Virus record (IMG/VR): IMGVR_UViG_3300031629_000009
Coordinates: 1-43,363 of that record
Origin: a virus
DNA: 43,363 nt
Reading direction: 5' to 3' (one strand)
A program made the position numbers and the translations under genes. The notes beneath the pieces are model-generated. The model worked only from the letters and a program-made list of their open reading frames with translations. It was not told the DNA's origin and made no database searches. This document shows, piece after piece, positions 1,919 through 36,638 of this stretch (position 1 is its first letter; every line of letters begins with the position of its first letter).

Positions 1919-2043
1919 GTTTTTTCTCCCTATCTATGCCATTAACCATGGATTCGCCACCCACTCACTGATCAGGGGAAACTAGTGAGGATGTGACTAC
2001 TGGACTTATGCACCTGTCAGGGCCAGTGGATCTGACTAGGGAG
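1919..2043. other. Non-coding gap before scaffold gene
   Basis: About 125 nt without a supported ORF, between the tRNA-like minihelix and the scaffold start. It carries several short inverted repeats (for example CTGATCAG, and CCACTC against GAGTGG) and the scaffold ribosome site GGGAG. I see no convincing -35/-10 pair. It is the longest gap inside the otherwise tightly packed head operon. Confidence 0.5.
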
Positions 2044-2088
2044 TGGACATGCCCGGAATCGAACCGGGGCATTTAACCTTTCATGCCC
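2044..2088 (-). ncRNA. tRNA-like minihelix (acceptor stem plus T arm, no D or anticodon arm)
   Basis: Read on the minus strand: 7-nt 5' acceptor GGGCATG (2088-2082), a 13-nt linker (2081-2069), a 5-bp T stem CCCGG/CCGGG around a perfect T loop TTCGATT (2063-2057), then 3' acceptor CATGTCC (2051-2045) and discriminator A. The acceptor strands pair over all seven positions (one G-U). The D and anticodon arms are absent, and the encoded tail is ACTCC rather than ACCA. It lies 7 nt past the stop of the upstream virion gene. It could be an RNase P/RNase Z processing signal, a decayed tRNA, or an attachment-site fragment; the pairing itself is directly visible. Confidence 0.55.
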
Positions 2089-2094
2089 GACGAA

Positions 2095-3225
2095 CTATGC
2101 GGAACCTAGAGGACTCGCATTTAGAGAGTTAGCACTTACACCTGCGCTGCCGGTGAATCGTGCACGTTCCTGCGAAGCGAGGGTTCGCTTCTTCTTCGCT
2201 GCCTTGGCGGCACCACTCAGACCGAACTGGTCAGAAACCAGTTCGTCATCAGTCGTTGCGATACCACTCATTCGACCAAGCTGTGAATAAGTGTCCGATA
2301 TCTCTGCGACACTATTGAATCCAGCGGAAGCGTTACCGAAGGAATTGCCGTAAGTATCGTTACCAGCAAGCTGGTCACGACTAATGTCAGAAATGGTTAC
2401 ACCGGCATCGGATGCGGCAGCACCAATCGTGGACTTACGCAGCTTGGACTGGTACTCGTTCTCAATGAACCCAAGAGCCCTGTCCTCGTCGAGGACGTAT
2501 GCGGTCATCTCCTGGTCAGACATCCCGTATATTTGGCGAAGCTGAGTCTTGATCGAAGAGTTGGCGGAATAGTTTATGTAGTTCTTTGCCGTGGTCACTC
2601 GGCTTGACACTTCTTCGGGTGAAACATCTTTAATGATCCAGTCCGATACGTCGTCTGCTGTCCCCCACAAACCTGTAGGTAAACCAACAAGTGCCATCCG
2701 GTAGCCGTCCTCCAGAGCAACGTAGGAAGCTGGTGAAGGTTCAGGCATGATGGTTAATCCCTGTTGCAGGCGAGTCTTGTTGAGTTCGCGGATCTTTTGT
2801 ACCGCTGGGAATCGAGAGAAGTATGCCGTCTGGTAGTTACTGTCTCTGGAGAGAATCCCAGAGATAGTGTTCGCATCGTTGTAGCCTTGACGAATCAAGG
2901 CGTCTACCCCACTCCAAAGCTTAGTCATTCCGTAATTGTCAAAGAAGGTTTTAGCTGAAGCTAAAGCATTGTTGACCCGCCTTGACTCTGCTTCCGCTCT
3001 GGCAGTTGCGGCTTGTCTTGCCGCCTCAGCCTCTCTGGCGTTTCTATCGCTCCAGTAGGTTTCCTCGTTGGTAGGTCCTGGCTTAGGTCCTGGTCCTGGA
3101 GCTGGAGTTGGAGTGGCATCGGGACCCGCAAATATTGGCCCCGTGTATCCACGGTTAAACTCTTCGGTAAGATTTGGGTTCTTGCTCGGGTCTAGAAAAT
3201 CTAGATACCCTGCGACACTAGCCAT
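2095..3225 (-). CDS. Putative internal virion protein, Pro/Gly linker
   Basis: 376 residues, function not recognised. After a short N-terminal segment there is a Pro/Gly-rich linker (APGPGPKPGP, near residue 45), then an Ala/Arg/Glu-rich probable coiled coil (AREAEAARQAATARAEAESRR, about 62-85) and a mostly helical body. A basic KAAKKKR patch lies near the C-terminus. ATG 3225 overlaps the stop of the preceding gene by 1 nt (TAATG). It is the last of three similarly sized genes between the giant protein and the scaffold, a position that suggests minor capsid or ejection proteins. Confidence 0.6.
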   Translation of the reverse strand: MASVAGYLDFLDPSKNPNLTEEFNRGYTGPIFAGPDATPTPAPGPGPKPGPTNEETYWSDRNAREAEAARQAATARAEAESRRVNNALASAKTFFDNYGMTKLWSGVDALIRQGYNDANTISGILSRDSNYQTAYFSRFPAVQKIRELNKTRLQQGLTIMPEPSPASYVALEDGYRMALVGLPTGLWGTADDVSDWIIKDVSPEEVSSRVTTAKNYINYSANSSIKTQLRQIYGMSDQEMTAYVLDEDRALGFIENEYQSKLRKSTIGAAASDAGVTISDISRDQLAGNDTYGNSFGNASAGFNSVAEISDTYSQLGRMSGIATTDDELVSDQFGLSGAAKAAKKKRTLASQERARFTGSAGVSANSLNASPLGSA

Positions 3226-4214: not shown

Positions 4215-5140
4215 TAGCCAATCACCCTCGTCTGGTCTTCAAGCCCTTCGATGAATGCGTCCAAGTAAGTGGTCGCGGTTTGATACTCCGCGTAACCCTC
4301 CTGAGATTTAGCGAACCTGTCTGCGAAATCATTACGGTCGAAACCACCAGTGGTGGTTGATTCCTGGTCAGTGTTCCTACCGGTCGTATTCCCCTTAGTC
4401 ACTGTCGTGGTGGGGTTGGCTCTCTCCTGCACGTTTAGTGACTTAAGGAACGCTGTGTTCTCTTGAGTGGTTGCCGTCCTACCAAGGTAGCTAGTCAACG
4501 CACCTTGAAGAACTGTTCGGGCAGTACCCTCGTTGGTGAGCGATATGGAACGGTTAGTCGTACTGAAAGGACCACCACTTCCACTACCGGTGCTGGGTAC
4601 GCCATCCTTGATGAAGCCGTTAAGGACTTCCTCGAGGGAAATGTCCTTACCGGCTTTGTTGAGCATCGCAGTTCTGTCAAGAGCCAGTCGGTACACAGAT
4701 TCAAACTTGGTGGGATCTTTATCCGAAGCAGCTTGGACCTTTGAGATTATGGATTCGTTGTCGAGCTGAAGGTAGCCACCACTGGCAAGATCGTAGTAGT
4801 CACCCGAGGTTCTCTTAGTTCCCATGACACCGGGAGTGCCTGCAGCAGGCTCATCTCGGCTGTATTGAAATTCTGGTTTTTCGGTAAGGGGGATGTCGAA
4901 CTTAGGCGTATCCTTTTTACCACCGCCACCAGCTAAAAGCTGTGCAGCGGCAGCATTGACCGCACCCATAACATCGATCTCAGCACCGGATTGACCAGTT
5001 TTAGCATCTGGTTCAGCATCTGGGTCAGCTTGCTGCTTCCTGAAATCATCCGCGATACCCCTTACGGTCTCCGAAGCTAGCGAGTCGTCTACTTGGTCGG
5101 GCACCAGTGCCCCGGATAGGTTGTCAAACTCGTCAGCCAT
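4214..5140 (-). CDS. Putative internal virion protein
   Basis: 308 residues, not recognised as a named family. It has an acidic N-terminus, an Ala/Gly-rich stretch with LLAGGGGKK near residue 70, a central segment (YLQLDNESIISKVQ), a Gly/Ser linker (STGSGSGG), and a Thr/Asn-rich region before a helical C-terminus. The stretch LTSYLGRTATTQENTAFLKSLN resembles helix pairs found in large phage structural proteins. ATG 5140 overlaps the 3' end of the giant gene by 8 nt, so translation is probably coupled. Confidence 0.6.
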   Translation of the reverse strand: MADEFDNLSGALVPDQVDDSLASETVRGIADDFRKQQADPDAEPDAKTGQSGAEIDVMGAVNAAAAQLLAGGGGKKDTPKFDIPLTEKPEFQYSRDEPAAGTPGVMGTKRTSGDYYDLASGGYLQLDNESIISKVQAASDKDPTKFESVYRLALDRTAMLNKAGKDISLEEVLNGFIKDGVPSTGSGSGGPFSTTNRSISLTNEGTARTVLQGALTSYLGRTATTQENTAFLKSLNVQERANPTTTVTKGNTTGRNTDQESTTTGGFDRNDFADRFAKSQEGYAEYQTATTYLDAFIEGLEDQTRVIG

Positions 5141-8100
5141 TTGCGCTCTCCAATGAAGGTATGGGTTCTAGCGTGTCGCTCGAGAAGAACCGTTCATAAG
5201 TGTTTCTGAAGTTTCCAGTCTCGTCGGAATCTTTAAGGTCAGTCATCATGCCCTCCCAAGCGAGTGCTACATCCGCATTGGACTTCGCGGAAATGTTGGA
5301 ACTGCCGCCTTCCATTTTGCGCTGAGCTAGCACATCGGAAACTGCTTGACGTAGTGATCTGTACTGCAGCATCGCATTCACATAAGTACCAACCGTTGGA
5401 TGGTTCTTGTGGGTTTCGAAATAGCCAGAATCGTACATGGATTCAAGTGCACGATTAGACTGAATCCACCTGCCGGTCGTTGGATCGTTGTAGGCATCCC
5501 ACCAATCCGTCTGTTCAGCACCAATCTGCTTTGCCAGCATGACTTTCGCACTAGAAAGGATGTCACTCTTAGCTAGAGTGGTCCCCTCCTCGGCGGCAAG
5601 AGCCTCAAGTTGTTCAACCATCTTGTTGTACTTAATCCACCCAAGCTCTTTATTACTTCGCTTCTCAGGGGATTCGTCCTGCTCACCCCCACGGATGTAC
5701 TTGCCCGTAGTGCCGTCGATTTTCCTACCCTGCTGCCACGCATAAACCGCAACATCAAAACCGTCCTCGTTCATTGCATCCTGGAATGGACGGGTAGCCA
5801 TGGTTATGAATGAAGCATCATCACCTATGTCTGCCAAGTCAGCCATGAGCCGTGGGTCCCGCTCGAACTCCTTGAACTCACCTACGTTCGCACCCATTCC
5901 CGATGAACCACCAGACAGTGAACCGTGGTAGCGGAAGAACTCAGTACCGTAAGCCTTAAGGAATGCGCTGCTGGCTTCCTCGTAAGTTCCGCCAGCATCA
6001 TAAATCTCGCGGTCCATCCTGCGAGCCTCATTGATGTAGAACTGGTAAGGGCTAGCTGCCTGTACCGAGAACGGCATAACTGCGCTTGTGAAAGCACGGA
6101 ACCACCAGAAAGTTTCAGCCTTATTGATGGCATCCGTGAACTCCGGCGCAGCACCCTTGTCAGGGTTGTCGTTAAGATCGTGATCCGTCATATCTGTTCT
6201 GTAAATCTCTTTGGCTGAGTTCGCGAAAGAAACCGAACTCATACCCCTTGTCAGAGTTACGAGCTTGTCGATGGTACCCGGAGCGAAAGTCTCAGTTACT
6301 ACATCAAGAATCCCCTTCTCCTGAGTGGGTCTCCCAAAAGGAATCGCCGACTTGTACAAAGGCTTAGTGATCTCTTTTTCCATAAACCATTCGTTTACTT
6401 CATCGGAGGTGAAATCTCCGAAGAACGGTATCTCCTTCAGGTTCCCAGTCTCGAACGCAGTCGCTATGTCTGGTTTCCTCGAAGCGATCCAAGTTAAAGG
6501 AACAACAAGCCAAGGGTGCAAGCCAGGTATGAACGGGTTCTCCCCCTGAAGCATGAAGTCCATTGATCCAGTAGGAACAGCGAACTGGGTCATTCCACCA
6601 GTCAACTTAGCCATCTTGTCGCGAGCTTCTTTAGTGTTGAACTGAATTACAATTTTTCCCTCAGCACCGCCGAACAGCTTGTTCGTTATCCTGCTCCTGA
6701 AGTTATCCTCACCCTGGACTTTGTTACCGTCCATGTCGTAAACCCAACCGGCAGACTCAGGAGCGTTGTAAAGCATCGCGTACCTGGCGATAGCTTCTGG
6801 ATGTCTTGCTGGAACCTGAAGCATCCAGAACCGCATCGCTGAAGCCCATGCTGGGAAGAAAGGGATAACAAACTTGAAGACATGTGCTGGAGTCGAAAGC
6901 CTCTGGATTGTGTAGAGGCTTTCGTTTACCTGCTGGAGTGCGTACCTCTTGGCGACCCTGTCCATGGCATTGATTTGAACATCGGTGAAATCCTTCAGAC
7001 CCTGATCCGCGTATAGGTCTGCTTGTCGCTGCATCTCTTCACGCCACCGAGAACGGTAGAAAGGATGCCTCACGAGGGCATCCTCTGGGAGCGCACCAAT
7101 TGTGTGCATCGCTTTACCAAGGAAGTTCTTCAACGCACCACGATTGTTGTCAATTAGAGCACCATCGCTAATGTTGGGGAGATCCGACCTCCACCCCATG
7201 CGAGTCATTAGGAAATCTGGAGTCACTTCACCATCAATAAGATGACGGGCCACATCATCGTCTGGCATGAGTTCTTTGAGCGTGTTTCTTTTCTCAAGGA
7301 TCACATCGATCATTTCATTACGAGCATCCTCGGTCAACTGCTTGCTGTCAACCAGTCCCTTAAGTGCACCAAAGGCGTGAATGTCTCTCACATACAATCG
7401 CCCAATTTCAGTACCCATCAACTCGGAAAGGATTTCCTCATCATCCGATCCCCTGATTATCATTTTAGACACCATGTCGTTGCGGTGGTACTTGTTCAAC
7501 TGCTCAGCCATTGCCAAGAAGTAACCTTCCTCGCCTGGCTCTTTCACAGTAAGTTGACTGGTCTTGCGAAGGCTCATCATTGCGTAGTCCGTGTAGCCGT
7601 AAAGGTTGGCTAGGTTCGTGTTGGAAGAGCTAGTCGCTTCAGACCACATAGATCCTTGGCTGTTTACGTTGAGAGGCCCAAGGGTTTCGAACTCGTTGAA
7701 ATCGCCAACGAATCTTTCTGTACCTGTGCCAGCACCACCCTTGACTGCCGCGCCTTTACCTCGCTTGCCGAGTCTCTTGGCCAGCGCGTCTGTTGCCTTC
7801 TTTGCGTCTAAAATCTGCGTGTCAAGTCTTCCTTGAATCTCTGCCAACCCAGTCGACATGGACTCATATTCGCTATGGAGCTCTTCCCACTTCGGGTTGT
7901 TGCCAAGTATTTGGTTACGAGTCTGCACTAGTTCAGACTCGTTAAGCAATGCTCCGTAAGCCAATCCAGTCTTCTTGTTGGCTGCGAGCTCGGCGGAGTT
8001 GGCGAACTTGGAACTACCAGAACCGAACTCACCAATTTGAATGTGCGAATATCCTTCAGATTCAAGAACTGTTGCAAGCCTTGCGTTCTGCTCTGGTGTT

Positions 8101-11100
8101 CCCTTCACCTGTCCTCTGACAACAGATAGCAGTTCAGGATCGTTCCCAAGCAGCGGCAAGAGTATGTCATCTTCGACCTGACTTGCCTTCCACACTGAAG
8201 GCTGGCGAACCATAGCCTCCCGCTCAAGTTGAGGGAGCGTGTTGTCAACGAAGTCTTTACCAATCATTCCGCTAGGCATCGCGGCCTCAGCCTGATCCGT
8301 GGAAACCGCCATCATGTCAGGGCTGGTGATGACTGTCTTCCCCGAAGGGGCAAGCGAGTCATCTAGAACTACTCTTCCTGCGCCATGCTCGCTCATGTAC
8401 TTGACCAACATTGATTTGTCTCTGTCAGTCATATTCGCAGCGTCCAGCGCACCTGGCTTTAAGCCTTGGTACCTCTCGAACTCGTTCAGATTCTGTCGGG
8501 CCTTATGAGCGTTACCGAGATCACTGGCGGCTAGTTCATTCGCCTGTACCCTCATCTTTTCTAGTTGGTAGAAGTCTTGGGTAATCTCGCTGACAGGCTT
8601 GATCTCTGGGACTTCGTACCAGACGAAGACGTCATGATCACGGGTGCTAGACCTCATGGTCCGACCACCAATGTGCTTGACCCCTACAGCTCCCTGTTCC
8701 CTCATGACATCAACCCAAATCATCTGGGCCACGAAGCTAAGTTCAAGCGCAGTCTCTTCGCTAGTTATCTCTTCACCGACACTCTCCCTCTGGAGTTTCA
8801 TGAAGTGACGCTCCATGCCTTGTCGGTAATCGTCCACGTTCAGACCGTGAGTTCTGGGCTCTTTGGTCGGATCGGTTGGGTTTAATTGCCTTTGGTACTT
8901 TGCCTCAACGTCAGCGACCACCTCGCTCCACATGAAATCAACTTCTGCATCTAAGTCATCTATGAGACTGGGGATTCCCTTTTCGTCATAATTTAGGTGC
9001 ATGTTGTAGAACGTGTCCTGTAGCCACTGGTCAGTATCCATCAGTTGCTCGGGTGTCGTGCCGTTTGGTCCGGGCATTACCTCCATCGGTTCGTCCAAGT
9101 CGACGAACCGCTTCTCCCCACCCTTGGGAAGGACTGCCGTGTACAAGGTGTTCTCACCTGTGACCTGGTCGGCTCTGTTGAAAATGTACGTCACGCCCAT
9201 GCCGGGGTCTCGGGTGGTGTAGAAACCTATACCCACCAGATTCTTAATGTTCTCTTCAGTGAAGATCGGATCGATATCAAGCTTGTCGCCCTTGATCCTG
9301 TTCCCACCATGGAAGACTAAGTCAGCGAGGTCATCAGTTATTGAAGGAATGAGTTTGCTGAACTCTTCGGGTGTTAGAGTCTTGCCGTTCTCGTCTTGCC
9401 AGTACTTCATTCTCAGGTTCTCGCGGAAGGCATTAACTTCTTCGTCCCGCGCCTTCGGACCGTTGACTGACTTGTCTTCAGCTTTCTTGGCCTTGTTCGC
9501 AAGACGCTTAAGTTCTTTGTTGTTTACCAGCAATCCAGTCTTTTCGAACCACCGCTGCATATGCGGTGGCATCTGATTCACCAGCATCTTAAGCTTTAGA
9601 GAAGCAGCAAGAGCAGGGTCATCGAGTGCCATCTTTAGTACGCGCTCGATCTCGTACAGACTCTCAAGAAACCCCTCTTTACCCGACCCCGACAGGAAGT
9701 TCTCAGAGGAGCGGGACCAGTAATTAAGCCCTAGATCACGAGCCAGTTGATCCATGTACTCCCATCCGGGATCGGATAGTCGAGGTGTCCAGACTTTGTC
9801 AGCCTCGTCCCACGGTTGAGGTCCGTTAAGCGATTCGGTTTCCACAAGCCCACTCGGTCGGTCAGACTCACCGCGAGAAAGTTTCATCTGGCTTGCTCGT
9901 AAGTCAATCGAAGAACCGAACACGTTCGCCCGGACATACTCAACCTTGTTGAGTTGCTCCTTCTTAATGATTCCGATTAGATCGTTGTTCAAGTCGTCAA
10001 TGGTTATGTTCTTGAAATCGTGAACGATTTCATATGTACCATTTTTGGGATCAATAGTTCGGACAACGACATCGCCGTCCTTCATTCCCTTGTACACTGA
10101 ACGTCGAGAAGCCTTGGAGACGAGAGCGTTGTACATGTCTAGTTCTGCTTGGCCGAACTGTTGCTGGTTGGCACGAGCAATAAGCTCGTCCCATTGCGCG
10201 GCTTCCTTACTGGAAAGCCAGTTACGGATGTTGGCTTCAATCGCTTCTTCAGTTCCGTCACCAGCAAGAACACCATCCGGGCTGTACGGAGAGAGAGGAT
10301 TTTCATCTGCCAACTCACCGGCAAGCTTCTGGTTCTTGACACCGCCAATGGCGGTGGAATCCTGCATTGCCACACGGACTTGACCCTCTTGAGGGGTTTC
10401 GAAACCTGCAGCGTAATTCGACCGCTTGGAACCGCCACCGAAAAGTGGACGGACATAACGGGAAGGCATGATTAACTCGTCAGCCTCGTCAGCAAGAGCG
10501 GTGAATTCGCCAGTGGCTTCAGTGTTAACCTCCTCCATCGTTACGGAGGTTCTGTTACTGGTTGTGGCCTTGAACTCTTCAGTTAAAGTAGAACGCGCAT
10601 CCTTATCAGCCTTGCTCCAGACCTCGTCTACCTGAGCACTTACTCCGTCGCGAAGCTTGACAGCTTCGTTGACTTCTCTCTGTGTCGCAGTAGCTATGCC
10701 CTGAGCTCGTTCAACTTCCCGCTTCTTCTTCTTCAAGCGTCCCTTACGCATCAACGCGATGCGATTCGCGCCTCGGGCGAATCCTCGACCTGAACGCCAT
10801 GCCAGGCTGGACTCGATTGCTGTCGTACCCATACCACGCTCGCTGAAGATAGCCACCGATTTGTATGCTGCGAGTTCCCGAAGGTTTCCCTCGAGGACGT
10901 TACGGGTTGTGTAGCCGAGACGTAGAAGTACCAGTGGCCTCCAGATGGCGTCGATGTTTGCCGCAGTGCGGCTGCCTCTGATGTCGGACCATCCCTTGGC
11001 CTTTTGTAGACCGCTACCACGGTCTAGCCGGAAGATGTTTTCAATGAAGTGGAAATCAACTGCAGGCATTTTCTCCGCAAGAATGGACTGCATGTCCTTA

Positions 11101-13277
11101 AGAACGTGGATCTCTCCATCTTGAGAGATAAGGCCCTTCTGCCTTACCTGCTCAACCACAGCTTGACGCATGCCCGAGTACTTAGTGATCATATTCTTCG
11201 CTGCTTGTTCTGATATGCCATACTCAAAGGCGAGGGCGTTCCACATCCTGCGCTCAAAGTCTTCAAAAACAACCATACGCTCCGTGGAGCTGATGGCTGC
11301 ATTCATCCGTGAATAGATTTCCCTGCGGAAATCGCTAACCAGCTGTCCGGTTCCGGGGAGGAATGCCTCACCCTGAAACTTCTTTGCAAGCCTTCTCATC
11401 ATGGGAAGGGTTTGTATGATTCCGTCGAGTTCGGCAATTACATCGTTAGTGTCGTTAAGGTCAACAAGACCCTTCATTCGATGAGTCTTCATGTAGTCCA
11501 GACCCGCGTTCCACACGCGAACCTGCCTACCGAATTTTCCACCAGTCTTGAAAGACTTAACAAACCACAGGTTGTCACCGTTTTGCTTGCTAACAGCCTT
11601 GGCTGCTTGCTTCTCCATGCGAGCTGCGGATGAAGGGCCAAAGGATAGTTTACTAATTTGTAGGTTTCTAAGTGTGAGTGCGTTTGGAAGACCCGCCTCC
11701 TTGCTAATGCCAGCTAGGGCAGTAGCAAGGTGCTCGTTCTCCTTTATTGCTGCAGACAAAACCTTTTCAGCGTGTCCGGCTTCGGCTCTAATTAGATCAA
11801 TCTGCTGGTTCATGCGCTTTACGGTCAGTTCACCAACGAAGTTTAGGGTCGGGGTACCACCCACCGTCATGTTAGCTCTGGCCACAACTCCAGCTGATTC
11901 TTCCAGCATCCCCAGTTCGCGGGCGGTTCGCTGTAACGCTTCCACGTTCAGGCTCAGTGCGTCAGCAACAACAATGTCTTCATTCATCAACTGAGCTATA
12001 GCTTTGCGGTCCCCAGATATAGCTCGTAGCCGTAAGGCTGCATCGTCGAATGTTTTAGCAGGTCCGAACGTGCGAGCAACTAAGGCACCGTCAGTGCTGG
12101 TGGTAGCAATCTTATGTCGGCCTATGCGTTCCGTGTTCATCTTCGCTAGAGACTCAACGAGTTGTCCAACGGCGGTTCTCTTGCCTCCTTGCGCCCCATT
12201 GAGGAAGTCTTTGTGCATCCGCAGGGATTCGTTAAGTTTGTTTACGTCCGATAAGTCTCCGACGGACCTGACGGTTAGGCTTCTTGCTGCTTTGCCAGCA
12301 AGCTTCAGCCCAACGACTTCAGGTGCAGCCCACCATAGAACTGCCGCATCAGCGGCACCAGATATCCACCTACCAGCACCTTGGCCCAAGGCCGAGTCGC
12401 GCTGTTTCAAGTTTCCAATATCGAACTCGGTGTGCAGTCCCCACTTCCAGTCCAGCAAGTCGCGGGTGTTGTTCGGATCAGCCAACTTTCCTACGTTGTC
12501 TTCCTCGATACTCTTGTCGACATCCCCTCGAGTGTCTCCCGATGTTACTAAGTCATATGCGTTGAGCCATGAAACACCAGTACCAATGGTGATTGCTTGA
12601 CCTGCAGTTATGGCGTTGAGTTGGGAAACTTCGTTTCCCTCTGCATCCATAACTGGCTTGCCATCACGACCGATTACTGCTTCTTCTTGACCCCACATCA
12701 TCTTGTAGGTGTCGCCAATATCAGACCACTGGTAGCCATCATCGAAATTCGGGTTGATATTCGAACCGTTATTTATTCCCGAAGCCCCAGCGAGGAGGTT
12801 GGTTGGCATACCAACGTTATCCACGCCGAGCATGTAGGTTCCACCAACAACGGTGTTGGTGGCTCTATACCCAGCATCCATTAGAAGTAGTGGGGCCAGA
12901 AATAAACCGGCTGTTCCTCTTGCTCCGGCTTCACTGAGTCCAATGTCTTTTGCTGCCGCTTGGACATTCGGATCATCCATAGCGTCAAAATTGGCAGATG
13001 CAAATTCAAGCTGACCGTCTTCGTTTACCGATCCTGATGGTGTTATTGAGTTTCTGAAGTTTGTCTGCGCTGCACCTGAAACCAAGTTGTAACTACTTAG
13101 CTTGCCTTTCGCTACCCTGCCTACAGATCCAAGAGTGTTTGCAATATCTTTCTCGTCAAAAACCCCCTCAGCCTTATTGGGGTCGTATCCCTCAAATCCG
13201 GGAATGGAGCCAGTCTGTGGTGTGCGCTGGCTTCCCTGCTTCTCCCTGCCTGCAAAATCGTCTACTCTATTGGCCAT
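5133..13277 (-). CDS. Giant (2714 aa) internal virion protein with ADP-ribosyltransferase-like domain
   Basis: At 8.1 kb this is nearly a fifth of the window. ATG 13277 is chosen over the upstream TTG (13289), which lies 1 nt from GAGGAG. Visible features: a hydrophobic stretch near residue 125 (AGLFLAPLLLM), a very basic RLKKKKREVERAQ coiled region around 845, and an ART-like block with FHGG (H about 1323), GIGFYTT (about 1349-1355) and a downstream GVKHIGG...VFVWYEVPEIK (about 1532-1561). A hydrophobic VFKFVIPFFPAWASAMRFW patch lies in the C-terminal third. The spacing of H, FYTT and the 'F-x-x-EIK' strand resembles ART-like domains of phage polyvalent proteins. It lies between portal and scaffold, which favours an ejection/internal protein over a tape measure. 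No lysozyme motif is seen. Confidence 0.75.
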   Translation of the reverse strand: MANRVDDFAGREKQGSQRTPQTGSIPGFEGYDPNKAEGVFDEKDIANTLGSVGRVAKGKLSSYNLVSGAAQTNFRNSITPSGSVNEDGQLEFASANFDAMDDPNVQAAAKDIGLSEAGARGTAGLFLAPLLLMDAGYRATNTVVGGTYMLGVDNVGMPTNLLAGASGINNGSNINPNFDDGYQWSDIGDTYKMMWGQEEAVIGRDGKPVMDAEGNEVSQLNAITAGQAITIGTGVSWLNAYDLVTSGDTRGDVDKSIEEDNVGKLADPNNTRDLLDWKWGLHTEFDIGNLKQRDSALGQGAGRWISGAADAAVLWWAAPEVVGLKLAGKAARSLTVRSVGDLSDVNKLNESLRMHKDFLNGAQGGKRTAVGQLVESLAKMNTERIGRHKIATTSTDGALVARTFGPAKTFDDAALRLRAISGDRKAIAQLMNEDIVVADALSLNVEALQRTARELGMLEESAGVVARANMTVGGTPTLNFVGELTVKRMNQQIDLIRAEAGHAEKVLSAAIKENEHLATALAGISKEAGLPNALTLRNLQISKLSFGPSSAARMEKQAAKAVSKQNGDNLWFVKSFKTGGKFGRQVRVWNAGLDYMKTHRMKGLVDLNDTNDVIAELDGIIQTLPMMRRLAKKFQGEAFLPGTGQLVSDFRREIYSRMNAAISSTERMVVFEDFERRMWNALAFEYGISEQAAKNMITKYSGMRQAVVEQVRQKGLISQDGEIHVLKDMQSILAEKMPAVDFHFIENIFRLDRGSGLQKAKGWSDIRGSRTAANIDAIWRPLVLLRLGYTTRNVLEGNLRELAAYKSVAIFSERGMGTTAIESSLAWRSGRGFARGANRIALMRKGRLKKKKREVERAQGIATATQREVNEAVKLRDGVSAQVDEVWSKADKDARSTLTEEFKATTSNRTSVTMEEVNTEATGEFTALADEADELIMPSRYVRPLFGGGSKRSNYAAGFETPQEGQVRVAMQDSTAIGGVKNQKLAGELADENPLSPYSPDGVLAGDGTEEAIEANIRNWLSSKEAAQWDELIARANQQQFGQAELDMYNALVSKASRRSVYKGMKDGDVVVRTIDPKNGTYEIVHDFKNITIDDLNNDLIGIIKKEQLNKVEYVRANVFGSSIDLRASQMKLSRGESDRPSGLVETESLNGPQPWDEADKVWTPRLSDPGWEYMDQLARDLGLNYWSRSSENFLSGSGKEGFLESLYEIERVLKMALDDPALAASLKLKMLVNQMPPHMQRWFEKTGLLVNNKELKRLANKAKKAEDKSVNGPKARDEEVNAFRENLRMKYWQDENGKTLTPEEFSKLIPSITDDLADLVFHGGNRIKGDKLDIDPIFTEENIKNLVGIGFYTTRDPGMGVTYIFNRADQVTGENTLYTAVLPKGGEKRFVDLDEPMEVMPGPNGTTPEQLMDTDQWLQDTFYNMHLNYDEKGIPSLIDDLDAEVDFMWSEVVADVEAKYQRQLNPTDPTKEPRTHGLNVDDYRQGMERHFMKLQRESVGEEITSEETALELSFVAQMIWVDVMREQGAVGVKHIGGRTMRSSTRDHDVFVWYEVPEIKPVSEITQDFYQLEKMRVQANELAASDLGNAHKARQNLNEFERYQGLKPGALDAANMTDRDKSMLVKYMSEHGAGRVVLDDSLAPSGKTVITSPDMMAVSTDQAEAAMPSGMIGKDFVDNTLPQLEREAMVRQPSVWKASQVEDDILLPLLGNDPELLSVVRGQVKGTPEQNARLATVLESEGYSHIQIGEFGSGSSKFANSAELAANKKTGLAYGALLNESELVQTRNQILGNNPKWEELHSEYESMSTGLAEIQGRLDTQILDAKKATDALAKRLGKRGKGAAVKGGAGTGTERFVGDFNEFETLGPLNVNSQGSMWSEATSSSNTNLANLYGYTDYAMMSLRKTSQLTVKEPGEEGYFLAMAEQLNKYHRNDMVSKMIIRGSDDEEILSELMGTEIGRLYVRDIHAFGALKGLVDSKQLTEDARNEMIDVILEKRNTLKELMPDDDVARHLIDGEVTPDFLMTRMGWRSDLPNISDGALIDNNRGALKNFLGKAMHTIGALPEDALVRHPFYRSRWREEMQRQADLYADQGLKDFTDVQINAMDRVAKRYALQQVNESLYTIQRLSTPAHVFKFVIPFFPAWASAMRFWMLQVPARHPEAIARYAMLYNAPESAGWVYDMDGNKVQGEDNFRSRITNKLFGGAEGKIVIQFNTKEARDKMAKLTGGMTQFAVPTGSMDFMLQGENPFIPGLHPWLVVPLTWIASRKPDIATAFETGNLKEIPFFGDFTSDEVNEWFMEKEITKPLYKSAIPFGRPTQEKGILDVVTETFAPGTIDKLVTLTRGMSSVSFANSAKEIYRTDMTDHDLNDNPDKGAAPEFTDAINKAETFWWFRAFTSAVMPFSVQAASPYQFYINEARRMDREIYDAGGTYEEASSAFLKAYGTEFFRYHGSLSGGSSGMGANVGEFKEFERDPRLMADLADIGDDASFITMATRPFQDAMNEDGFDVAVYAWQQGRKIDGTTGKYIRGGEQDESPEKRSNKELGWIKYNKMVEQLEALAAEEGTTLAKSDILSSAKVMLAKQIGAEQTDWWDAYNDPTTGRWIQSNRALESMYDSGYFETHKNHPTVGTYVNAMLQYRSLRQAVSDVLAQRKMEGGSSNISAKSNADVALAWEGMMTDLKDSDETGNFRNTYERFFSSDTLEPIPSLESANG

Positions 13278-13428
13278 CGTCAGCCCCAAGCTCCTCTAAT
13301 GTGGCATCGCGTTCTTCAACGCTTTCCCACGGAACCAGTGCTAGGCCGTAAGCGACAGGCGTATTACGCAGGCCAACGGCCTCAATAGCCTTGGCCATGT
13401 TGTTTACAAAACTCAAAGTCTGTGTCAT
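13267..13428 (-). CDS. Small conserved-looking protein between portal region and giant gene
   Basis: 53 residues (MTQTLSFVNNMAKAIEAVGL... ending EELGADDGQ). ATG 13428 overlaps the preceding stop as ATGA. Its 3' end overlaps the giant gene start by 11 nt, so it is a coupled link in the operon. The N-terminal half is helical and the C-terminus acidic. No family is recognised; a head-assembly cofactor or connector accessory would fit the position. Confidence 0.7.
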   Translation of the reverse strand: MTQTLSFVNNMAKAIEAVGLRNTPVAYGLALVPWESVEERDATLEELGADDGQ

Positions 13429-15919: not shown

Positions 15920-17815
15920 TTAGTTCCAGCTCGGTACGGATTCAGCAGCGAGCATGTCGTCGAGATTGATTACCATTTGGTTTTCTCGGTCCCTTTCATT
16001 GAGGAACTGGTTGTTTTTGGTGAAGTAGCTGGACCGGCGGGAAGATGTGACCATTTCCCTGGCTCTGAGTTCGGCGAACCAGAGAGCCATCACCGTGTCT
16101 TGTCTTCGATACTTCGTTTTAACGAAAGGTGACCATGAGACGAGTTCCTCTACGAGCATTTTTACGCCGTGGCTGTGGGTAGATGGAAGCTCAATGAGAT
16201 TGTCGCCCTGATGTTGGCGGGTTCCGCCGGTACCGTTAGCCACAGTCCCGAAAAGGCCGCTCATTGAAGAGACACCGAAGTCTGGGTCTTGCTTGTTGTT
16301 ACCCGTGTGGTGCGGTTTAAGCAGGATTCCTTTACTAGCCAGCTCCTGGTTGATTTCCTCGTCGTAAACGAGGAAACCTTGGAAGGCGTTGGATTCGATG
16401 ATCCATTCGTTGGGCTGATACACATCAGTCATCTCTTTGATGAGTTCGCGGATCTGCAAAGGAGACGGCCCAGACATAACCCGAACGTCCAGAACGAAAC
16501 GTTTACCGGAAAACTTGTCGATGGAGTAAGCCACTGCTGCCGTGTTACCCGCGATAGCGGGGTCCATGGAGCAAATCGTGTACATTCCATCAATCTTGGA
16601 AGGGTGACCGCGCAGAGTCGGATCTAGACTTCCCGTCTGCCTAGTGGGGTTGATACTTCCCCTCACCGCGACAGAATCAAAAGTGGACTCTTCCTCAATG
16701 TCCTGGTTCTGGTACACCAGGCTCCACTTGCGTGGACCTACCTCGTTACGGACCTGTGCAAGCCGTGGGCCTGTCCATCGGTCGTAGAACCCGTCAGCGT
16801 TTGGTTCATCACCATCAACGAACTCTTCATCGGCCAAAGGCCAGAGGGTGTTCCATTCTTCTGGGGTGTCGGCGTAGTCGAGTACCGCTGGCATGGACAG
16901 GTAGGTCCATGGCACCACACCGTCGGTGTAATGCTCCTCGTTGCGTAGTTCCGAATACAGGTCTGTAGGTGCGACCCTCGTCCCAACTATGAGTAGTTGA
17001 CCACCGGGACCTAAACGTGAGGCGACTTCTTGCCGCACCCAGTCCATTTGTTTCGTCCACTCGTTCGCGTTGGACAGTGTGACCGTGTCGTCGAGGACGA
17101 TCAGGTCGGCACGGGAACCGTAAATCTGTCCACCCATACCCAAAGCTTCAATGGTTGCGTCTTTCTCCGCACCAGTCCTGGAGCTGGAATCCAGATACAC
17201 TTTGGTCGCTGACCATTGGTCAGATGAAGCCTTGTACCCGTCAGCTGGCGCGAAAGCCAGCTGCATGTCGGCGTAGGCAGGGTGGGTGAGCCGCGATTTG
17301 ATCGCGTAAATCATTTTCTTCGCCATGTCCTGAGTTTTAGACACGATCATCACTGAGATGTTCGGGTCCTTAATAATCCTGTAAGTGACATACTCCACAG
17401 TGATAGTCATCGACTTCGCGTGGTTAGGTGGCACGTTGATGAGCATGCGCCTAGATCCTGAAGATCCAGGCTCGTACCTCATCGACGGGTGAAGGGCGGA
17501 AGGTTCACGCCCCTCAAGAATATCCACCATGTTTCGCTGATGGGGCCAAATCTTCCGGTTCAGATACTTACCCGCGAACTCCTCAAACTCCCCCGCGTCC
17601 TGCTGACGCATGTCCGGGCTGGCCACAGCCTTGCGGATCTTGTCAACCAGCTCCGCCCAGTCCCTGTCCTTGCGTCGTTGCTCCTCGTACCAGGTACGGG
17701 ACCGCCCAATAATTTTTAGACCGTCAGCTATGGAAGTGCCCTGACGGATCAGGTCAGCCAGTGAGACTTTCATGGCTGCAGCTGGACGATTATCTTTCCT
17801 GTGAACATTAGCCAC
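15920..17815 (-). CDS. Terminase large subunit with N-terminal HTH
   Basis: 631 residues. It is the ATP-driven DNA packaging motor and headful/cohesive-end nuclease. Walker A-like VPPNHAKSM lies at 128-136, Walker B LIVLDD at 238-243, and the RNase H-like nuclease starts at SMDPAIAGNTAAV (D418) with IIESNAFQ (E474). The first about 60 residues (LADLIRQGTSIADGLKIIGRSRTWYEEQRRK) look like a helix-turn-helix normally found in small terminase subunits. No separate small subunit is visible upstream, so DNA recognition may be fused in. It is the first gene of the late minus-strand operon. Confidence 0.93.
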   Translation of the reverse strand: MANVHRKDNRPAAAMKVSLADLIRQGTSIADGLKIIGRSRTWYEEQRRKDRDWAELVDKIRKAVASPDMRQQDAGEFEEFAGKYLNRKIWPHQRNMVDILEGREPSALHPSMRYEPGSSGSRRMLINVPPNHAKSMTITVEYVTYRIIKDPNISVMIVSKTQDMAKKMIYAIKSRLTHPAYADMQLAFAPADGYKASSDQWSATKVYLDSSSRTGAEKDATIEALGMGGQIYGSRADLIVLDDTVTLSNANEWTKQMDWVRQEVASRLGPGGQLLIVGTRVAPTDLYSELRNEEHYTDGVVPWTYLSMPAVLDYADTPEEWNTLWPLADEEFVDGDEPNADGFYDRWTGPRLAQVRNEVGPRKWSLVYQNQDIEEESTFDSVAVRGSINPTRQTGSLDPTLRGHPSKIDGMYTICSMDPAIAGNTAAVAYSIDKFSGKRFVLDVRVMSGPSPLQIRELIKEMTDVYQPNEWIIESNAFQGFLVYDEEINQELASKGILLKPHHTGNNKQDPDFGVSSMSGLFGTVANGTGGTRQHQGDNLIELPSTHSHGVKMLVEELVSWSPFVKTKYRRQDTVMALWFAELRAREMVTSSRRSSYFTKNNQFLNERDRENQMVINLDDMLAAESVPSWN

Positions 17816-30093: not shown

Positions 30094-30310
30094 CTTTGAA
30101 GCTCACATTCTCCTTGTGTTTTATAATGTCGTAGCCATCCCCATGCTCCTGACATGCAAAGCATTTCCAAGAACCTGTATACGGATCGATGACTGCGGAT
30201 GGTCTGTTCTCGTCATGTACTGGGCAGCAAACTTTCCTGCGCGACGTAGGCATATCTATGCCGTAATGCTCGAGGACTACCTCGAGTAGCAACGGCTTGT
30301 CCGTGATCAT
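29948..30310 (-). CDS. Primase, CHC2-type zinc-binding part
   Basis: 120 residues. C29-x2-H32 and C50-x2-C53 (KVCCPVHDENRPSA...WKCFACQEHGDGYD) form the CHC2 zinc ribbon that reads the template at the start of primer synthesis. After KDAVEIAQGIL (72-82) the frame becomes Ser/Arg-rich and unlike a primase, whereas the homologous continuation (TGAAETYQSRL) is in the +1 frame of the TOPRIM gene. ATG 30310 overlaps the WhiB stop as ATGA. Confidence 0.85.
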   Translation of the reverse strand: MITDKPLLLEVVLEHYGIDMPTSRRKVCCPVHDENRPSAVIDPYTGSWKCFACQEHGDGYDIIKHKENVSFKDAVEIAQGILDRSSRDVPVSTYGKSSSGVPRSSRDKSRSRKYKPSWIR

Positions 30311-30558
30311 ATTGTTACTAGTCGAATGTTGTTCTGCTTGCGTAAATCACGGATGGCTCGTTCACTCATGCCACCCCAGTAACCGTGCTCCTCATGCTCA
30401 ACCGCGTGAGTTAAGCATGCGTCCTGCACAGGACACGCACCACACACTCGAGCAAGCGTTTGGAAATCAAGTTGAACCGTTGAATGTTCTGCTGCGTACC
30501 ACGAATCGTGACCGGTGTCCTTACAAGCTGCGTCCTTCTGCCATTTAAGATCAACCAT
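30307..30558 (-). CDS. WhiB-family transcription factor
   Basis: 83 residues with the four Fe-S cysteines (C12, C39, C42, C48; RVCGACPVQDAC) and the GYWGGMSE turn (59-66), followed by a basic tail (RAIRDLRKQ) that contacts DNA. WhiB proteins are specific to Actinobacteria and their phages and bind the host sigma factor. Start overlaps the previous stop (TAATG). Likely a switch in phage or host transcription. Confidence 0.92.
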   Translation of the reverse strand: MVDLKWQKDAACKDTGHDSWYAAEHSTVQLDFQTLARVCGACPVQDACLTHAVEHEEHGYWGGMSERAIRDLRKQNNIRLVTI

Positions 30559-35596: not shown

Positions 35597-35636
35597 TCTC
35601 TAAATCATTGCAACACAACAACGAAAGGTGGTAGGT

Positions 35637-36638
35637 ATGTTGTTATCGGAGGTCATTATTCTCTACTGTGACCATAAACGCAGTGCTGGATTCGCGGAAA
35701 GTACCGCGTCAAACGCCTATAGAAACCTCACCCGAGTCATGGATATCATCGGTGACGTTGACATCACCGATGTCACACCGGCCCGGATGGACCGGTTCTT
35801 CGCGGTGGAGATGGCTCGAGGCTTACAACCAGGGACATTGAATTCCTACCATTACATCCTCTCCGCGTTCAGTAAATGGTGCCGCCACCGGGGTTATTTG
35901 GTGGAGTCACAAGATCTGGTGGCCGGTCGCCGTAACTTCAGGGACCCACCCAAGCAGCGGGAATATGTTCCCGCGAGTGATTTTGCTACCTTGTTGGACA
36001 TCGCATCAACTGGCCCGACCGGTGCACGGGACCGGGCTTTGATGGCGAGCGGGTTGTATTTGATGAGTCGTGCCTCGGAGCTGATCCACCTCAAAGTAAA
36101 AGATATTAACCTCGAGTATGACGAGGTGGAGGTGTTCATCAAGAAAACTCAAGAGCGCGACACCATGCCGATCTGTCTGGAGCTCAAAATTGAGCTCGAG
36201 GAATGGTTGCATTTCTATCGGAACCAGATGGGTGGTGAACTGGACCCTGACTGGGTCCTGTTCCCCCGGTACACCACCGTGGCCTATCACCAGTGGGAAA
36301 TGGATACCAGTAGTTCCATTGGCCGCCCGCAACTGATCGTACAACGATGCCTCAAAGGGCTCGGGTGGAAAGATGATTGGATGGGGGTGCATGTTCTGCG
36401 CCGTAGCGCAGCCCGTGCCCGGTTCGAGGAAAACCTTGAAGCCGGTTACGACGGTGCAATGCGGGAGATCCAGTCATGGCTGCACCACAAGGCACTGACC
36501 ACTACCGAGAGGTATCTGGGCATGACCCACGATCGGGAACGCCGCAATGACCGGACAAAAGGGAAATCCATGTATCCGTCCGTGTCTCCTAGTAAGGTCA
36601 TTCCTTTCCCCCTGATAAAAGGAGAACTCAGTGGCTAG
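35637..36638 (+). CDS. int: Tyrosine integrase
   Basis: 333 residues from ATG 35637 (AAAGG 8 nt upstream; GTG 35628 is open but touches that site). Core-binding SAM-like domain about 1-85, catalytic domain from about 110: R145 (SRASELIHLK), H252 and R255 (HVLRRS), H283/H284 (WLHHKA) and nucleophile Y293 (TTERYLG). It would insert phage DNA into the host chromosome, probably at a tRNA/tmRNA-like site, and indicates temperate life. No excisionase is recognised, though the small zinc protein downstream may take that role. Confidence 0.93.
   Translation: MLLSEVIILYCDHKRSAGFAESTASNAYRNLTRVMDIIGDVDITDVTPARMDRFFAVEMARGLQPGTLNSYHYILSAFSKWCRHRGYLVESQDLVAGRRNFRDPPKQREYVPASDFATLLDIASTGPTGARDRALMASGLYLMSRASELIHLKVKDINLEYDEVEVFIKKTQERDTMPICLELKIELEEWLHFYRNQMGGELDPDWVLFPRYTTVAYHQWEMDTSSSIGRPQLIVQRCLKGLGWKDDWMGVHVLRRSAARARFEENLEAGYDGAMREIQSWLHHKALTTTERYLGMTHDRERRNDRTKGKSMYPSVSPSKVIPFPLIKGELSG

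Follow-up and report, generated by a model that had tools for sequence, protein, structure and literature searches.

A 45-nt tmRNA-like element in the head operon of a virus belongs to a family of putative TLD-only tmRNAs in phages

Bacterial tmRNA is a substrate of RNase P, is charged with alanine and is bound by EF-Tu and SmpB, and crystals show SmpB bound to a fragment of its tRNA-like domain (TLD) that has a short closed P2 stem (PMC3985003). The tmRNA of mycobacteriophage DS6A is little more than a TLD (PMC4131195, PMC11915505). A DS6A-like molecule, chargeable or not, is reported to inhibit tmRNA strongly, perhaps through titration of SmpB (Mao et al. 2009, cited in PMC4131195; PMC11915505). 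Mallomonadaceae plastids carry CDS-less tmRNAs of about 65 nt (PMC11915505).

Within 43,363 nt of viral DNA (IMG/VR record IMGVR_UViG_3300031629_000009, positions 1 to 43,363; hereafter the window), a 45-nt tmRNA-like element runs from 2088 to 2044 on the minus strand, which also encodes the head genes. The original prediction had described a minihelix with a 7-bp acceptor, a 13-nt connector, a 5-bp T-stem and the loop TTCGATT, placed within the head operon. Both descriptions held: all of these parts are present, and the element starts 6 nt past the stop codon of the upstream gene and lies ahead of the scaffold-like and major capsid genes, which are both downstream of it. All 7+5 pairs form, and the only G-U pair is the third, 3-70. 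From 2088 down, the parts follow one another in the order given here, with their surroundings below them.

2044-2088, minus: TLD-only tmRNA-like element, whole (from sequence; Rfam RF00023, 20.3 bits; family of 29)
2082-2088, minus: acceptor stem 5' strand GGGCATG; pairs with 2045-2051; 4-69, 5-68 and 6-67 covary in relatives
2069-2081, minus: 13-nt connector AAAGGTTAAATGC; stemless D-loop, GG at 2077-2078; no P2 stem
2052-2068, minus: T-arm CCCGG TTCGATT CCGGG, a 5-bp T-stem and 7-nt T-loop; T-stem pairs 49-65 to 52-62 covary in relatives
2045-2051, minus: acceptor stem 3' strand CATGTCC, carrying U70 of the G3-U70 wobble; G3-U70 in 29/29 distinct elements
2044, minus: A73 discriminator, A in 29/29; CCA not encoded, next letters CTCC
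1999-2036, minus: scaffold-gene leader pseudoknot; P1 GTCAG (2032-2036)/CTGAC (2016-2020), loop ACTGG (2023-2027) with CCAGT (1999-2003)
1925-1978, minus: candidate second leader pairing, CCCC (1975-1978) with the ribosome-binding site GGGAG (1926-1930)
2095-3225, minus: upstream gene
1454-1918, minus: scaffold-like protein
405-1430, minus: major capsid protein (PHROG 1357)
5133-13289, minus: very large protein of the head region, 2718 aa
14096-15907, minus: portal
15920-17815, minus: terminase
30307-30558, minus: WhiB-like small protein (cysteine motif, by eye)
35628-36638, plus: tyrosine integrase (PHROG 1)

Smaller protein genes, also on the minus strand, fill the interval between the gene for the 2718-aa protein and the scaffold-like gene. 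The WhiB-like protein is consistent with an actinobacterial host, and the capsid relatives of the window point to Actinomycetota. The folding energy of the element is unremarkable (z = -0.9) and by itself does not set it apart. The combination of features, present once in the window, appeared in none of 60 first-order Markov simulations of it; the element is more than chance. An identical copy is found on a second contig (L003/L004), and a search of annotated phages with the DNA around the element gave no match.

The DS6A tmRNA, known here by its description, is likewise phage-encoded and little more than a TLD, and the window element has the features of that type: a 7-bp acceptor, G3-U70, A73, a T-arm and a stemless GG-containing D-loop. 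The DS6A attB is listed as a tRNA-Lys (PMC10865867), and the two elements are probably alike in not being attP remnants. Judged against the DS6A description only, the window copy is reduced further and lacks even the P2 connector helix. DS6A is also a described single case, whereas capsid relatives here carry a whole family of such elements in the head operon. With bacterial tmRNA (ssrA, RF00023), the element shares the 7-bp acceptor with G3-U70, A73, the stemless GG D-loop and the T-arm, and P2 is matched in the relatives of the window; in contrast, it has no tag reading frame, pseudoknots or messenger-like domain, and consists of 45 nt against a model of 374 positions. The Mallomonadaceae plastid RNAs have been similarly cut down to about the TLD, but they are organelle genes and are longer. 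RNA minihelix(Ala) is an engineered acceptor/T-stem substrate of AlaRS. It resembles the window element in its 12-bp acceptor/T helix, G3-U70 and A73, but the latter is natural and has a GG-containing connector.

We compared the element and its relatives with Rfam. In a narrow search, the best clan member for the window element was tmRNA, with model positions 1 and 374 aligned to its two ends and the middle skipped. Relatives aligned in the same manner (L029, 43.4 bits, E 5e-14; L022, 39.6; L018, 37.8; L056, 35.6; L017, 35.1 bits). All of these scores, including that of the window, lie below the gathering score of 47, so none passes. ARAGORN called neither a tRNA nor a tmRNA at the element. 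The tmRNA D-loop stretch GGTTTCG is kept in L029, and GGTTTCGAC is kept in L136 and in Streptomyces phage LuckySocke. The G3-U70 pair, the stemless GG D-loop, the P2 stems of relatives and the matches to tmRNA in Rfam lead us to regard it as highly probable from sequence, and well supported, that the window element represents the TLD of tmRNA without the messenger-like part, an identity that the original prediction did not propose. In this form, the TLD amounts to an acceptor/T-arm minihelix that retains a D-loop with GG.

A complete tmRNA is ruled out, as only 13 nt separate the acceptor from the T-stem and there is neither a tag frame nor a pseudoknot, and so is an ordinary tRNA gene, for which ARAGORN made no call and which would have no room for a D-arm and an anticodon arm. 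The suggestion that the element is a decayed tRNA did not fare well: the window lacks D and anticodon arms, and its relatives carry P2 rather than anticodon arms. ARAGORN calls of 86-88 nt in L036 and L029 (“tRNA-Ile” and “tRNA-Arg”) are without normal cloverleaf anatomy, and for L029 Rfam favours tmRNA instead. In L036 (about 4310-4388), the P2 of the TLD element is a 12-bp stem capped by an anticodon-like loop, CTGATAC (cf. tRNA-Ile GAU), and this element is possibly a TLD/tRNA chimera.

Capsid-protein searches and T-arm patterns yielded a family of 29 distinct elements, three of them from cultured phages; members come from the same slot as the window element and from cultured actinophages. 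G1-C72, G2-C71, G3-U70, G7-C66, G53-C61 and A73 are invariant in 29/29 elements. The compensatory changes that the original prediction had proposed to look for are present at seven pairs (4-69, 5-68, 6-67, 49-65, 50-64, 51-63 and 52-62). Across the core of 19 sequences, all 12 pairs are formed and 7 show double changes, with a covariation score of 0.530 versus 0.133 +/- 0.024 for shuffled alignments and no slid version above 0.13; these figures are to be read knowing that family candidates were chosen for pairing and that G3-U70 was used as a label. A relaxed rescan without the G3-U70 rule, covering slots with neither a strict match nor a tRNA, found no clear element with another third pair; apart from a few unrelated matches, it picked up just a degenerate trace in L020.

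The D-loop GG is kept in relatives except L056, L130 and L172, where it becomes AG together with a T-loop change from TTC to TGC, a paired change that is expected if both loops touch. P2 stems are evident in many members (CTCACTA/TAGTGAG in L002; CTTGTTCTT/AGGAACAAG in L014) and weak or missing in others. Slot hairpins in L078, L084 and L094 are without a standard T-loop and were left out of the element count. In L011, a TLD element almost identical to the L005 one is accompanied by a separate tRNA-Ile beside the leader pseudoknot; as the L011 capsid is only distantly related, the near-identity suggests horizontal transfer of the element.

An independent set came from a scan of viral contigs for a tmRNA D-loop joined to a T-arm within 45 nt, a pattern that required neither G3-U70 nor A73. 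At least 120 stretches matched. Among the matches listed there were 94 distinct sequences, 85 of which form the acceptor stem and T-stem, giving at least 85 distinct mini-tmRNAs; among these same matches, G3-U70 was present in 84/85 and A73 in 85/85. In 44 of the mini-tmRNAs listed, covariation is seen at all six P2 pairs, and the whole-structure score is 0.825 versus 0.163 +/- 0.019. Most mini-tmRNAs measure about 78 nt and have a P3 hairpin nested within P2. Cultured phages with unannotated copies include the Microbacterium phages Quenya, Dismas, Katzastrophic, Armstrong, Gack and LeeroyJenkins and the Streptomyces phages LuckySocke and BRock, where the copies sit near tRNA genes and not before capsid genes. 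Loci L098, L099, L101, L185-L188, L191 and L192 are unannotated mini-tmRNAs of such cultured phages. One search matched 24 Microbacterium phage records. In 396 genomes from the phylum to which a Streptomyces strain belongs, the pattern had 0 matches, but this is not enough sequence for a claim of phage-specificity.

We propose that the window element would be co-transcribed with the head genes and that host tRNA-processing enzymes would release its RNA from the head transcript. The released RNA would receive CCA and then alanine, by way of G3-U70 and A73. Once charged, it would compete with host tmRNA for SmpB, alanyl-tRNA synthetase and EF-Tu, probably as an SmpB decoy; alternatively, it may enter stalled ribosomes as an alanine donor without a template. 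The outcome would be that trans-translation is blocked or altered during late gene expression, and cleavage from the late transcript would separate the capsid message too. That the alanine determinants are so strictly conserved is a hint that charging is important, for instance in letting the RNA enter stalled ribosomes. From the analysis as a whole, we infer that the family probably acts on trans-translation, and hold the same of the window's minimal copy with somewhat less confidence; the full explanation, an excised, alanine-charged TLD acting on host trans-translation, we put at slightly better than an even chance. Evidence against it is that the window copy has no P2 stem and an Rfam score under the gathering threshold. 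The close relatives L006 and L020 have no recognisable element, so it is dispensable in this clade.

Because related copies are widespread and mostly unannotated in phages, these viruses probably employ them to interfere with or exploit host ribosome rescue. We speculate, with the balance tipping a little against it, that phages hold a large overlooked class of alanine-chargeable mini-tmRNAs directed against (or hijacking) ribosome rescue, and that the 45-nt window form is among the smallest natural aminoacylatable tRNA-like RNAs, at a place where the capsid message would be freed by the same tRNA processing. In the papers cited here, TLD-only tmRNA is reported from one phage only, DS6A; our evidence suggests an RNA family that is widespread, with invariant alanine-identity elements, and present in cultured, tractable Microbacterium and Streptomyces phages. 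If these RNAs block trans-translation, ribosome rescue would be a directly testable phage-host battleground. The family falls below the thresholds of ARAGORN and Rfam and is unannotated in public records, so it would merit its own RNA model.

It is somewhat unlikely that the element is instead in decay, left over from a functional TLD-only tmRNA whose P2 region was deleted, and inactive in this phage. Such decay would fit the connector (13 nt, versus 41-67 nt in the other tabulated elements), the 97-nt version carried by L005, whose capsid protein is 90% identical, and the state of L020, with its degenerate trace only, and L006, with nothing. However, the acceptor and T-arm pairs, D-loop GG, T-loop, G3-U70 and A73 are all intact, and the sole core change relative to L005 is compensatory: the window differs from L005 at two positions of the 32-nt core, which form one pair. 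Two changes are barely fewer than expected from the 82% identity of the leader (P about 0.02-0.06).

Cutting by RNase P and RNase Z at the element is plausible, because RNase P acts on tmRNA itself (PMC3985003) and because a conserved pseudoknot is close to the 3' end of the element. This H-type pseudoknot in the scaffold-gene leader shows compensatory changes in most of the relatives inspected, over a range of capsid identity from 90% to about 40%; its fold is kept with or without a TLD element, and in nearly all relatives the 3' end of the element is a few nt upstream of it. We consider it unlikely that the element is mRNA-processing punctuation only, recruiting the two enzymes so that the scaffold/capsid message starts at the pseudoknot and is cut off from the upstream genes. 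Closeness to the pseudoknot would agree with such a mark, as would the contents of the slot just upstream of it, which may be a TLD, ordinary tRNAs (Trp, Met+Asn, Pro/Met/Gly or Leu) or, between the upstream gene and scaffold/capsid of the Beephvirinae Streptomyces phages Dennebes, Immanuel3 and Manuel, an array of about 20 ordinary cloverleaf tRNAs as opposed to one TLD. Yet of the 93 capsid representatives whose upstream sequence is long enough, the element is present in 22 (the window being counted twice), tRNAs in 19 and neither in 52, many of the latter with the pseudoknot kept; the element label requires at least six changes on the tree. The slot thus attracts tRNA-shaped RNAs, none of them obligatory. 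Moreover, G3-U70 and A73 are invariant, though cleavage is not known to need either, and the related mini-tmRNAs of other phages sit outside head operons. These two observations make mRNA processing alone an insufficient explanation.

The last of the earlier alternatives, that a host tRNA or tmRNA gene supplied its 3' end as an attP core, is very improbable: although the phage encodes a tyrosine integrase, and such enzymes often use tRNA or tmRNA 3' ends (PMC10865867), the integrase gene is 33 kb away, the 22-nt 3' end of the element has 0 exact matches in 84,980 prokaryotic genomes (a collection from which the true host may be missing), the acceptor 5' strand and D-loop of the 5' half are conserved too, and the stems change through compensatory substitutions, while in an attP core it is the sequence itself that is conserved.

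Two further RNAs may be mentioned beside the proposed TLD. The conserved leader RNA at 1919-2043 (minus strand), for which Rfam gave no convincing family match, is possibly a regulatory leader; its CCCC and GGGAG motifs are found again ahead of the scaffold gene in relatives, and from sequence it is possible that the CCCC pairs with the ribosome-binding site. In Gordonia phage GMA2 (KR063281; L100, about 419-827), we observed an apparent full-length tmRNA-sized element, unannotated among the listed features, with the acceptor GGGGTTG/CAACTCC and about 377 nt in between.
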